IMG/VR virus record: IMGVR_UViG_3300006052_000017
Span: 1 to 39,025 of that record
Source: a virus
Strand: one strand, 5' to 3'
DNA: 39,025 bases
Shown: positions 2,235 through 16,419 of the stretch, piece by piece
Layout of the letters: the number at the start of each line of letters is the position of its first letter
Numbering within the stretch: position 1 is the first letter of the stretch
The notes under the pieces: generated by a model
Seen by the model: only the letters and a program-made list of their open reading frames with translations
Told to the model about the DNA's origin: nothing
Databases searched by the model: none
Program-made: the position numbers and the translations under genes

Positions 2235-2499
2235 ACCTGGGGATAAGAAATCTTATGTTGACTGTTGGCGACTGTTGACTGTTGCTCGAGCGCTCGAGCT
2301 TGGGGCCCGCGCGCCTGGCCGGGCTCGCCTGGTGAGCCTACTGTGAGCCGCCGGGGATGCGCTACATCCGCGACATCCGCTACAAGGCCACCCCGCCCAC
2401 ACTTTTTACCCTTTACGCCCCCGGTGGGATTTCCTTTTTCCCCGGCTACCCCCTCGGCCCTTTGCTACCACCGAGTTAGCAGCACGGATTGCAGCACCC
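2235..2499. other. Non-coding repeat- and palindrome-rich region, candidate replication origin
   Basis: No convincing gene lies here. In order: an AT-rich inverted repeat, ATAAGA-AA-TCTTAT (2243-2256); three direct copies of GACTGTTG (2260-2267, 2270-2277, 2277-2284); a 16-bp perfect palindrome, GCTCGAGCGCTCGAGC (2284-2299); paired GTGAGCC (2332-2338, 2343-2349); paired ACATCCGC (2364-2371, 2373-2380); and a pyrimidine-rich tract near 2400-2450. Iterons, a palindrome and AT/pyrimidine-rich DNA in a non-coding gap between convergent transcription units are typical of a replication or partition origin. I saw no clear DnaA box. The function is inferred. Confidence 0.45.
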
Positions 2500-2739
2500 T
2501 CACTGCTCCCACCACGTAGCATCCGATTTGCCACGTGCGACCATTGGCGTTTGCTCTTTGCCGATTTGGCCTTCTTCGTATGCCTGCTTGCGCTTGAACT
2601 CGTCCACGGCACGTTCGGCCTCCCTTATGTCAGCAGCAATCTGGTTCGGGGAATTCCAGGGAAGTTTATCCCAGTACGGATCAGCTTGCACCCGCCGCAA
2701 CCCCTCCAACCGGAATTCCAATGCTCGCAGGGTGATCAT
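2500..2739 (-). CDS. Small helical hypothetical protein, 79 aa
   Basis: ATG at 2739 is preceded (minus strand) by CCAGAAGGAATCTTA, a good ribosome site at normal distance. The protein is highly charged and helical: an N-terminal MITLRALEFRLEGLRRVQ, then PYWDKLPWNSPNQIAADIREAE and a Lys/Glu-rich helix, ending TWWEQ. It resembles small phage accessory proteins of unknown role and matches no named family I recognise. It is the most distal leftward gene, separated from the rest of the early cluster by the candidate small-RNA region, so it may be transcribed by read-through. Confidence 0.65.
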   Translation of the reverse strand: MITLRALEFRLEGLRRVQADPYWDKLPWNSPNQIAADIREAERAVDEFKRKQAYEEGQIGKEQTPMVARGKSDATWWEQ

Positions 2740-2990
2740 TAAGATTCCTTCTGGTATCTACGCGAAGAAACATTCCCTAGGGCATATACCAATGCTTGCT
2801 GGTGAGCAAAGCCTAGCCATCCTTAGTGCAGATGACTAAGCCTTCAACAATGCCCGCCGGAGCCGCATCGCCCGTCAGCCGTTCGACTAGGGGCGCTAAC
2901 TTCGCCACCCCTCCCCCTGTCTCAAGTCTTTCCCACAGTAGGGGGTTTCCTCGCACCCTGCCGTTGAGTCCCCGACAGTGCGACGGCGGC
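2740..2990. other. Structured non-coding stretch, no supported gene
   Basis: On the minus strand this stretch has several foldable segments, such as a GCTT-T-GCT/AGC-AAGC hairpin (2791-2809) and the pairing CTGT/ACAG with flanking C5/G5. A leftward frame (stop near 2813, TTG at 3010) stays open, but its only start lies within the upstream terminator hairpin and lacks a ribosome site. I treat it as unproven. The region may be leader RNA for the 2500-2739 gene or the 3' part of a longer structured RNA. Confidence 0.35.
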
Positions 2991-3068
2991 AATAAAAAAG
3001 CCGCATTCAACTGGATTCCTGTGGAAACCCTGACTGGTGAGACAGGGAGGAACCCATGTGAATACGGC
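2991..3068 (-). terminator. Long-stem Rho-independent terminator, leftward
   Basis: The 10-bp outer stem (3000-3009/3059-3068), continued by 8-bp and 5-bp inner stems, is directly followed on the minus strand by TTTTTTATT (2999-2991). It could end both the leftward early operon coming from 3135 and the short RNA starting near 3094. Confidence 0.75.
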
Positions 3069-3094
3069 CTTGCAACCCGTCGTTTCCACGCGAC
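2991..3094 (-). ncRNA. Candidate regulatory small RNA with long stem, possible pseudoknot and intrinsic terminator
   Basis: Downstream of a leftward promoter lies about 104 bases ending in a compound stem followed by T6ATT on the minus strand (2991-2999). Outer stem: GCCGTATTCA with TGAATGCGGC (3059-3068 with 3000-3009). Middle stem: TGGGTTCC with GGAATCCA (3049-3056 with 3012-3019). Inner stem: CCCTG with CAGGG. Two positions pair as G-U only if the minus strand is transcribed and would be C-A mismatches on the plus strand, which fixes the direction. The 5' segment GTGGAAAC (3089-3082) is complementary to GTTTCCAC in the bulge (3028-3021), allowing a pseudoknot or a switch. A simple operon terminator is the alternative reading. 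Confidence 0.55.
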
Positions 3095-3100
3095 AGGCGA

Positions 3101-3129
3101 AATCTAAATTCTCCTGGCTACCCTGTCAA
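3101..3129 (-). promoter_or_regulatory. Sigma70-like promoter, leftward
   Basis: On the minus strand, TTGACA (3129-3124) and TAGATT (3106-3101) are separated by exactly 17 bases. The -35 is perfect and the -10 matches at 4 of 6 positions. It starts just after the stop of the 3135-3611 gene, and the predicted start near 3094 lies about 25 bases before the long stem. It would make a short terminated transcript. Confidence 0.6.
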
Positions 3130-3134
3130 GCACT

Positions 3135-3611
3135 TTATATCCCAAGGCTTGTCTTAACGGCAACCATAGCCCTGCCGTGCATTTCCAGGGCTTCATCCCA
3201 ACTGGAACACCTCTCCTGGCTACCATCCAATTCCCCTCCAAAGATCATGGTTTCAAAGAGAAGGGGTGGCCCACCTGCAAAAGAGTGATCCAGGCCCAGG
3301 AATACCGTGCTGACCCGCACCCCCTTGATGGTGTCCTGCTGGACTATCCGGTTGGCTGCATTCTCAAACCATCCCGCCCACTGCCTTGTGGACACCGGCA
3401 CAGGAACATGGGCCTCATTGAGAATATACGTCCCGATCCACGTAGTTACCTCGTCCCCATTGGGGTCGTATATCTTCCTCGTAGACTCCAAGACCAGCCT
3501 GCCCAACCCATACGTCACGGGTGGTTTGCTGTATATCACGGGTGGTTTGCTGTATATCGACTCCATCAGCTTTTGGCGTAGCGATTCCAACTCCGATGAT
3601 GCTTTCTTCAT
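3135..3611 (-). CDS. Conserved-looking phage hypothetical protein, 158 aa
   Basis: I chose ATG 3611 because GGAGG sits 5 bases upstream; an ATG at 3623 is in frame but lacks a ribosome site. After a helical N-terminus (ASSELESLRQKLME) comes a duplicated heptad, YSKPPVI/YSKPPVT. The C-terminal half carries the pattern STVFLGLDHSFAGGPPLLFE followed by CSSWDEALEMHGRAM, which I recognise as a recurrent motif of phage-encoded hypothetical proteins without known function. It is the last gene of the leftward early cluster, one base after the stop of the 48-aa gene before it. Confidence 0.75.
   Translation of the reverse strand: MKKASSELESLRQKLMESIYSKPPVIYSKPPVTYGLGRLVLESTRKIYDPNGDEVTTWIGTYILNEAHVPVPVSTRQWAGWFENAANRIVQQDTIKGVRVSTVFLGLDHSFAGGPPLLFETMIFGGELDGSQERCSSWDEALEMHGRAMVAVKTSLGI
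3515..3556 (-). repeat. Perfect 21-bp tandem duplication inside a gene
   Basis: Two identical adjacent 21-bp units (3515-3535 and 3536-3556; plus strand TCACGGGTGGTTTGCTGTAT and one more A) encode the repeated heptad YSKPPVx of the 158-aa protein. Identity at every base indicates a recent in-frame slippage or duplication event. Confidence 0.9.
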
Positions 3612-3612
3612 G

Positions 3613-3759
3613 TCACCCTCCATTCCTCTTTAACCACTCCACATAGGCCACCCGCTGTTCCTGGCTATATGGCTCGGGTGCTGGCCGGTATTTGGGCGGC
3701 TTGACCTCCTTGCCCTTATCCTTGACCAAGTTGACTGTTCCAAACTGGTATTTCTTCAT
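3613..3759 (-). CDS. Small hypothetical protein, 48 aa
   Basis: A 49-codon frame starts at ATG 3759, overlapping the stop of the preceding 20-aa gene in an ATGA junction, and ends TGA one base before the next start. The protein is basic and proline-rich in the middle (KEVKPPKYRPAPEPYSQEQ), ends in a short helix VAYVEWLKRNGG and has no membrane segment. The junctions on both sides and normal codon composition support a real coupled gene. No family is recognised. Confidence 0.65.
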   Translation of the reverse strand: MKKYQFGTVNLVKDKGKEVKPPKYRPAPEPYSQEQRVAYVEWLKRNGG

Positions 3760-14626: not shown

Positions 14627-16138
14627 CTATTTCAGTCTTTCCATTGTTACTTGTTGCACCGACCAAGAATCGCTGGTCACAGCGACGCTCGAATAAAACC
14701 GTAGATCCAAAGTCTGAGGACCGGCTGTTACCGTAGTGCTGGCCGGTGTGATCCCAGAGGTAGCCACCAGCGTTGCCGAGGCCACCCTGTTATTGCAATA
14801 TCCTGTAGTCCAAATAGCCGTTGTACTCGAAGCTGTCAAGATCATTTCCAACTCCCAGTTTGTCGTCTGGGCAGTGGAAGCGAGAACGGCTCCTACTGTC
14901 AAAACAGTCAGGGAAGTTGACCCCCAAAATGCGGCGCACAATGCGTTGCGTGCTGTTGCAGAGGACACAGCTACGAAAGTTCCATGCGCCCGCACCCTCC
15001 AAACCGATCCAACAGCCGCCACCTGATTTAACTGGGTAATGCCCCCAGTCGTGGGGGTAACAGTCGAGTTGATGGTCGTCAGGGCTGTCAAACCACCCGC
15101 ATTGACCGTATCCGGGTCAAACCCGCCGCCACCGTAGATGTGGCTTATGGCTTCCGATGCCACATCCACCCCATCCGAAGTATCAATGGTGAAATGAGCA
15201 GAGGGTCCCATAGGCCCTTGGGAGCCTGTCACCCCAGGGCTTCCCTGAGGCCCTTGGTGCATGAAGAATGGTTCGTCTGCGTCCGGTGCTTCCAGATACA
15301 CGGCAGGTCCCGTAGGCCCCTGCGCCCCCGTTGTTCCAACCCCCGCAGCCCCGGCGGGGCCGGGAATAATCATTGGCTCATCAGCCTCGGGAGCCTCTAG
15401 GTACACAGCAGGACCGATAGGACCCTGAGCACCAGTAGACCCGGCAGCGCCAGCCGCCCCAGGTGGCCCTGGTATGGCTAGCGGCTCATCTGCTTCGGGG
15501 GCTTCGAGATAAACAGCAGGACCAGGAGGGCCAGCAGAGCCAGTAGTGCCAATGCCAGTAGCCCCAGGCGGACCAGGAACGACAGCAGGCTCATCGGGAG
15601 GGTCAGAATCGAGGTAGATGAAAGCCGTTGTGGTGATGTTTGTCGTGACTCCGGGAGGCCCCTGCGGACCAGGCGGGCCAGGAATCGGCATACCGTCATC
15701 ACCATCGGCACCATCCAATGCTATTGGTTGCGCTGCAACACCGGGACTACCCTGCTGGCCGGGGTTTCCAGGCGGACCGGGGATACCGGGAATAGGCATC
15801 CCATCGTCCCCATCTGCACCATCGAGTGCTATGGGGTACGCCGCTACTCCGGGTGCCCCAGGAATCCCCTGCAAGCCCTGCGGTCCTTGTGGGCCGGGTA
15901 TGGGCATACCGTCATCGCCATCAGCCCCGTCCAGGGCAATCGGCATGGCGGCTGTTCCCGGTGCCCCAGGTGTTCCAGGTGTTCCGGGCGCTCCTGCCGC
16001 CCCAGGAATACCCGGTATGGGCATCCCATCGTCACCATCCTCGCCGTCCAAGCCAAGGCCAATAGGACCCTGCGGCCCCATCGGTCCTTGAGGGCCTACA
16101 CCACCCCCACCACCGCTTCCAGGGTTGTAGACAGGCAT
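14627..16138 (-). CDS. Collagen-like phage fibre protein, 503 aa
   Basis: ATG 16138 (MPVYNPGSGGGGG) forms a TAATG junction with the upstream stop; the frame is open further but the extension is not protein-like. After a glycine run comes a Gly-X-Y collagen region of about 260 residues. It is interrupted at regular intervals by eight acidic blocks: four of the type LDGADGDDGMPIPG, then four of the type YLEAPEADEPLAIPG. The C-terminal 190 residues are a beta-rich domain (GGITQLNQVAAVGSVWRVRA, NWELEMILTASSTTAIW, TLDLRFYSSVAV), probably a trimeric jelly-roll head. Collagen-like phage proteins form trimeric rods in fibres or head appendages. Confidence 0.85.
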   Translation of the reverse strand: MPVYNPGSGGGGGVGPQGPMGPQGPIGLGLDGEDGDDGMPIPGIPGAAGAPGTPGTPGAPGTAAMPIALDGADGDDGMPIPGPQGPQGLQGIPGAPGVAAYPIALDGADGDDGMPIPGIPGPPGNPGQQGSPGVAAQPIALDGADGDDGMPIPGPPGPQGPPGVTTNITTTAFIYLDSDPPDEPAVVPGPPGATGIGTTGSAGPPGPAVYLEAPEADEPLAIPGPPGAAGAAGSTGAQGPIGPAVYLEAPEADEPMIIPGPAGAAGVGTTGAQGPTGPAVYLEAPDADEPFFMHQGPQGSPGVTGSQGPMGPSAHFTIDTSDGVDVASEAISHIYGGGGFDPDTVNAGGLTALTTINSTVTPTTGGITQLNQVAAVGSVWRVRAHGTFVAVSSATARNALCAAFWGSTSLTVLTVGAVLASTAQTTNWELEMILTASSTTAIWTTGYCNNRVASATLVATSGITPASTTVTAGPQTLDLRFYSSVAVTSDSWSVQQVTMERLK

Positions 16139-16419
16139 TACTGGAACTCTTGTATGGCTATTGTCGTGCCACTGGGGGAGATTGCGAACACATCCCCGTT
16201 GAAGAAGGAGTATGGGTCCATGTTCCATACCCCGTTCTGGGCTAGGGCTATGCCACCATTGGGGATTGCGGGGTCCTCACAGCCAAGGAACACGTAGTTG
16301 GTGCCCACGTTGACGATGATTAACCCCTTGCGAAAAGGGTTGGCTGGCAGGACGTTAATGCTCGCCGCCCCTACGTTGACCGATAGGGGTGCATTGGCGA
16401 ATCCAGAGCCACCAGACAT
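16138..16419 (-). CDS. Small beta-rich virion protein, 93 aa
   Basis: ATG 16419; both ends are coupled by overlap. After SGGSGFANAPLSVNVG comes ASINVLPANPFRKGLIIVNV and GTNYVFLGCEDPAIPNGGIA, ending FNGDVFAISPSGTTIAIQEF. NPxRKGLIIVNVGTNxVFLG is a pattern I know from small phage virion proteins that cap or decorate fibres and heads. It precedes the collagen-like gene with a TAATG junction, so it is probably made together with that fibre. No enzymatic motif. Confidence 0.7.
   Translation of the reverse strand: MSGGSGFANAPLSVNVGAASINVLPANPFRKGLIIVNVGTNYVFLGCEDPAIPNGGIALAQNGVWNMDPYSFFNGDVFAISPSGTTIAIQEFQ

Follow-up and report, generated by a model that had tools for sequence, protein, structure and literature searches.

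We analyzed a 39,025-base virus record (IMGVR_UViG_3300006052_000017), here called the window, that carries ordinary tailed-phage genes, including those for an ERF annealing protein, a YqaJ exonuclease, a portal protein, and a terminase. A collagen-like protein with G-P-X repeats is encoded amid the structural genes (14627-16228, minus strand). Between an open reading frame (ORF) ending at 3135 and small ORFs from 2739 lies a minus-strand unit that very probably encodes a genuine small RNA, about 100 nt long and folded into a knot-like shape, with a promoter and a stop signal of its own (Table 1). The preliminary description placed the unit in a non-coding block that faces a terminator. This needs correction, as the unit does not stand alone there and an Rfam RNA, RF02932, adjoins it on the same strand: the order on the minus strand is the unit, then the RF02932 match 8 nt past the T-run, and then the small minus-strand ORFs. 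The ORF before the unit (3623-3135) has about 21 bp duplicated in tandem at 3520-3560, which repeats YSKPPV.

Table 1. Features of the locus and of two related loci; positions refer to the window unless a locus is named
Feature	Position	Strand	Basis or remark
Sigma-70 type promoter, TTGACA-N17-TAGATT	3101..3129	-	Promoter scan and family-wide score
Pseudoknotted small RNA unit (predicted)	2994..3098	-	Folding; models R2 and R3
P1 hairpin	3075..3098	-	Loop 3089-3083 supplies the 5' pseudoknot strand
P2/P3 compound terminator hairpin	3000..3068	-	Folding; pairing in relatives
Pseudoknot 3' strand, GTTTCCAC	3021..3028	-	Asymmetric bulge; covariation in relatives
T6 of intrinsic terminator	2994..2999	-	Sequence
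Betaproteobacteria-1 RNA, Rfam RF02932	2870..2986	-	96.5 bits
RF02932 3' extension, conserved, unmodelled	2785..2869	-	Ends with direct repeat, GGCTCC-R1 ... CACCA-R2
Small ORF, 79 aa	2500..2739	-	Downstream of unit, same direction; no family match
Small nuclease-like ORF	L012 7103-7429; L014 5604-5969	-	No visible ribosome-binding site

A scan of positions 2300 to 3700 returned TTGACA-N17-TAGATT as the sole promoter-like site. Its place ahead of a unit of about 104 bases, as described before, was confirmed on the minus strand (3129-3101), with TTGACA at 3129-3124, a 17-nt spacer, TAGATT at 3106-3101, and 10 of 12 consensus bases. The P1 hairpin pairs GCCTGTCG (3098-3091) with CGACGGGT (3082-3075). 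In the compound hairpin, the outer part of P2 (3068-3059 with 3009-3000, 10 bp) is followed by a 2x2 internal loop, the inner part of P2 (3056-3048 with 3020-3012, 9 bp), and P3 (3047-3043 with 3032-3028, 5 bp). The stem had been given as 10, 8, and 5 bp followed by T6; the first and last helices and T6 stand, and the middle helix has 9 bp rather than 8. Two stem positions do pair as G-U only when the minus strand is the RNA, as had been pointed out; these are the P2 pairs 3064-3004 and 3053-3015. The folding energy was -52.3 kcal/mol for the minus-strand unit compared with -36.7 for the plus strand, and the minus-strand fold had a z score of -4.5, with no shuffle as good. The compound hairpin was missing from the simple terminator scan because its inner loop exceeds the size that the scan allows. 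In Rfam 15 the unit had no match, whether to a riboswitch model or to RF02932, which matches only 2986-2870 and was the only family reported at E values up to 1 within 2400-3700.

Within the unit, GTGGAAAC (3089-3082) is exactly complementary to the pseudoknot 3' strand (3028-3021). The bases of the eighth pair also take part in P1 and P3, which leaves seven independent pseudoknot pairs. P1, P2, P3, and the 7-bp pseudoknot are mutually compatible and can all coexist; P2 and the pseudoknot do not compete, and no antiterminator structure was found. An on/off switch, offered earlier alongside the pseudoknot, is thus unsupported in the window, and a cis switch was set aside there as unlikely, the P1 loop having no second pairing site. 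When the two segments were shuffled, the 8-nt complementarity between the P1 loop and the bulge had a chance of ∼0.02 in a single sequence. The window by itself is therefore weak evidence for a pseudoknot, and it is the relatives that make the pseudoknot firm.

Preservation of the pairs in related phages, assessed by covariance search, had been put forward as a test of the unit; we ran it, and the pairs are kept. In 26 non-redundant units chosen solely by terminator stem and T-run, complementarity between a unit's own 5' segment and bulge averaged 7.19 nt, compared with 5.07 nt (standard deviation [SD], 0.22) when partners were swapped, and the swapped-partner maximum over 20,000 permutations was 6.15 nt. 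Alignment A3, with nine sequences including the window, had 89.4% of cells paired and double changes at 7/7 pseudoknot pairs. Its whole-structure covariation score was 0.513 compared with 0.228 (SD, 0.023) for shuffled alignments, and neither shuffles nor column slides approached the real score. Patterns for the terminator stem only led to 117 further places (60 non-redundant), and the P1 loop matched the bulge over at least 6 nt in 59 of these 60 units. From this set we aligned 36 distinct phage RNAs (alignment A5), in which 252/252 pseudoknot cells were paired, with double changes at four of the seven pairs and the remaining three invariant; the lower stem of A5 was set by the search pattern and is uninformative on conservation. 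Across the relatives in A3 and A5, 88 to 100% of P1 cells and 91 to 99.6% of P2 cells were paired. Two covariance models built without the window, R2 and R3, each found the unit as their sole match in the window (2995-3096 and 2994-3097, minus strand; E values, 2.1e-7 and 1.9e-11, respectively), and the opposite-strand matches of model R1 were mirror images of the hairpin. Covariation of this kind argues firmly that the predicted pseudoknot is real. What the preliminary description proposed, a small structured RNA that has a promoter, a compound stem, a pseudoknot, and a terminator, was borne out in the window and its relatives, and we are nearly certain that the unit is a genuine, conserved RNA gene.

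With about 100 non-redundant units, the family is widespread across viral contigs. The traits that define it are present in the window: a sigma-70 promoter directly before P1, a T-run directly after P2, a pseudoknot between the P1 loop and the P2/P3 bulge, and a conserved non-coding element directly downstream, here RF02932. The mean promoter score before P1 was 8.56 compared with a background of 6.77 (SD, 0.81), 68% of 99 units were above the 95% background level, and the promoter-to-P1 distance is short and nearly fixed across the family. No promoter was seen around the T-run (score of 6.29 compared with 6.77 in the background; 2% above the 95% level). The terminators have stems of 10 to 20 bp and runs of T5 to T9. 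Neighboring genes are often replication genes (ParB-like, helicase, TOPRIM primase, RusA, RecB/ERF, primase-helicase, and HNH), and in a second setting about 20 loci lie just after the large terminase gene. None of nine records searched whole had more than one copy, and a pattern search for close homologues of the window's stem was empty. The unit appears to be phage-borne, as a search of 399 Burkholderiales genomes with one stem pattern and model R1 yielded 0/399, weak evidence in that the filters were strict and the pattern came from a single subgroup; an origin in chromosomes or prophages was set aside on the same count. The unit was also absent from 43 genome loci carrying the RF02932 pattern. 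Among annotated phage records, MW202545.1 carries the unit inside an annotated hypothetical protein. At 2832-3289 of this record (locus L262), the annotation gives two hypothetical proteins, probably spurious, in place of the unit and an RF02932-like element.

When searched for with a pattern for its conserved core, RF02932 turned up in 98 viral and 43 genome stretches. RF02932 and the unit, both of them non-coding phage elements, sit side by side on one strand in the window, with the unit upstream, and about 45 other viral loci have this arrangement. They are nevertheless separate elements: the unit also precedes other downstream families, and RF02932 also occurs without the unit, in the 43 genome loci and in Acidovorax phage AP1. 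A tie of the unit to RF02932 alone was rejected, since none of the 60 terminator-pattern units had the strict core and a few had variants of it. In Acidovorax phage AP1 (OM049504.1, 11896-11984; L261), an RF02932-like element directly follows the primase gene, without the small RNA. Bacterial RF02932-like copies are repeated per contig in Caballeronia catudaia (L127 and L129) and Caballeronia temeraria (L102 and L142); in one Caballeronia case the copies are about 160 nt apart, and many have a TATACAT -10-like box upstream.

The RF02932 model stops short of a conserved 3' extension of about 85 to 100 nt that is present in nearly all relatives (L002-L142). In the window, the direct repeat in this extension has R1 at 2858-2848 and R2 at 2799-2789 (minus strand), with GCATTG common to both. 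The model also lacks loop-loop pairings that appear to covary, with GCAG/CTGY joining loops 1 and 2 and GACT/AGTC joining loops 2 and 3. A tRNA-like fold of the 3' half was dropped, as the GGG/CCC taken for its acceptor seems instead to form a covarying local pseudoknot. In loci L012 and L014, a nuclease-like ORF sits between the unit and RF02932, starting about 14 to 22 nt past the T-run, and has weak similarity to restriction-enzyme N termini (HSDR_N, below cutoff). There is no room for a promoter before this ORF, so its expression seems to need read-through.

Across the family, a second conserved non-coding element nearly always follows the unit on the same strand, usually within about 40 nt. 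Where the strict RF02932 core is missing, the downstream element is an RF02932 variant or belongs to a family without an Rfam match, and 99 of 101 non-redundant downstream regions fell into nucleotide-similarity groups of at least three. One such group has 33 consensus pairs, 85.5% of them formed and 19 with double changes; folding energies were ordinary in two examples of this group. Given these ordinary energies, we apply "structured" firmly only to RF02932 and with moderate confidence to the 33-pair group; for partners other than RF02932, structure is suggested by conservation and partial covariation. The large downstream families without an Rfam match (L147, L149, L153, L168, L170, L160, L155, and L209) look modular, with common 5' domains and differing 3' domains. 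Several downstream families share the motif GGCTCC-R1 ... CACC-R2, whose anchors are found in 42 of 101 units. R1 equals R2 as a direct repeat particular to each phage (7.14 nt, compared with 3.24 nt when swapped), and such repeats stand after GGCTCC and CACCA in otherwise unrelated elements (L159, L170, L008, and others). Directly past the T-run, units without RF02932 carry further complementarity to the P1 loop (4.87 nt compared with 3.92 nt [SD, 0.115]), with a match of at least 6 nt in 25 of 68. This second site lies just after the terminator in many of these relatives, so partner exchange may be possible there. It is absent from RF02932 units, the window included (3.42 compared with 3.31). 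The swap comparisons for the repeat and for this site leave the relatedness between sequences in place; distinct loop words occur in different downstream families, which makes relatedness an unlikely cause of the signal.

How such a unit might work is less clear than its fold. We tentatively favor, at somewhat short of an even chance, a stable leader RNA with a pseudoknot, in which the terminator acts as a gate on read-through into the RNA next to it. Host sigma-70 polymerase would start about 6 nt past TAGATT, near 3095-3094, and make P1 first. The 5' arm of P2, P3, and the bulge would follow, and the P1 loop would dock in the bulge to form the pseudoknot; the 3' arm of P2 would then close, and the polymerase would halt at T6, leaving a compact RNA of about 100 nt that would accumulate as a stable product. 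In a non-coding locus of two halves, the unit would be the first and constant one, setting or timing, in cis, the output of the RNA next to it and of that RNA's operon. No promoter is visible for the second element, which would thus be made only by transcription through the pseudoknotted terminator, either from this promoter or from upstream, and it is because this transcription must pass the terminator that we favor a gate in cis. The terminators look strong, and so little read-through would be expected unless something antiterminates. The strict preservation of P1 and the pseudoknot is the part that the gate model explains least well, as plain termination needs neither.

The same product might instead act in trans, as a stable phage small RNA of about 100 nt whose binding partner is a host protein, a host RNA, or the RNA next to it; a shared RNA island or a partnership would then explain its position beside the second element. 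We regard this as possible but doubtful. It would account for the unit's own promoter and terminator, for an RNA that begins directly in P1 and finishes with a terminator, as is typical of stable RNAs, for the same-strand tRNA genes just upstream of 10 of 101 units (0 of 83 background windows), and for the complementarity of the P1 loop to the start of the adjacent element in units without RF02932. That second site is missing in RF02932 units such as the window's, however, no antisense target was found in cis, and the loops vary so freely that no fixed recognition sequence is visible. Replication neighbors such as primase, helicase, RusA, and RecB/ERF, together with an R1 (hairpin loop) that equals R2 in each phage, so that RNA from the loop could anneal to the template strand of R2, would also fit a replication origin or primer locus in which the read-through transcript forms an RNA-DNA hybrid at the direct repeat and the terminator limits initiation. 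This seems improbable: the roughly 20 loci noted above adjoin the large terminase instead, no direct sign of initiation was found, and the GC skew of the window has no clear turn at the unit, which is itself uninformative.

The preliminary description thought of an immunity or copy-control antisense RNA like P4 CI, and a small structured phage RNA near replication genes in many relatives does recall it. The idea did not hold up, and we consider it very unlikely: Rfam gave no C4 or CI match, and in 26 phage loci antisense complementarity to the rest of the locus was not above chance, being no longer than that of random segments. With no cis target, antisense immunity was rejected. Least probable of all, to the point of being scarcely credible, is an ordinary terminator of the upstream operon with an accidental pseudoknot. 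The unit lies directly after ORF 3623-3135 and would stop its transcript, but the pseudoknot covaries, a conserved promoter stands between the ORF and the hairpin, and 80 viral loci have relatives of the ORF without the unit. On these grounds, a terminator serving the upstream gene only was ruled out.

Several known RNAs resemble the unit in part. In the Pistol ribozyme, the loop of a 5' hairpin pairs with the internal loop of a second hairpin, just as the P1 loop of the unit pairs into the internal loop of its second hairpin. Unlike in Pistol, the inner hairpin of the unit comes before the strand that forms the pseudoknot, and the outer stem, followed by a T-run, is a terminator; Rfam gave no match. 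The lambda oop RNA and 6S leader RNA are short, have their own promoter and terminator, and lie near replication genes or before further genes. The unit recalls them in general layout; no antisense overlap was found for it, and its next element is a non-coding RNA. Like P4 CI and C4, the unit is a small RNA that phages carry within or close to a replication region, but it has neither the model match nor an antisense target. Within the literature covered, which was partial, we know of no single system that works like the unit, and on this coverage we take the unit to be a new RNA family, closest in kind to the structured RNAs of phages, GOLLD and ROOL among them. GOLLD and ROOL are structured RNAs that phages encode, their function unknown, and they often lie close to tRNA islands (PMC12286853); tRNAs likewise directly precede 10 of 101 units. 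They are, however, several hundred nucleotides long and form cages, whereas the unit measures about 100 nt and has a promoter and a terminator of its own; neither the unit nor the tested partners matched the GOLLD and ROOL Rfam models. A larger and rather unlikely possibility is a two-RNA phage system unlike any described, in which a constant pseudoknotted leader is joined to an exchangeable second RNA from unrelated families, some with a per-phage 3' direct repeat, and the two would act jointly in replication or host take-over, the P1 loop passing from one partner to the other and RNA pairing with DNA at the repeat.

Phage annotation is mainly protein-centered, and in one public record this RNA is hidden inside a hypothetical protein. 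The unexplained RF02932 gains a context as the downstream half of the unit's locus in many phages, with a 3' extension of about 85 nt that its model misses, and Acidovorax phage AP1, an isolated phage, offers a culturable system for the second RNA. A strongly covarying RNA in about 100 viral contigs, nearly always coupled to a second conserved non-coding element, points to an unrecognized phage RNA function, often in replication modules.
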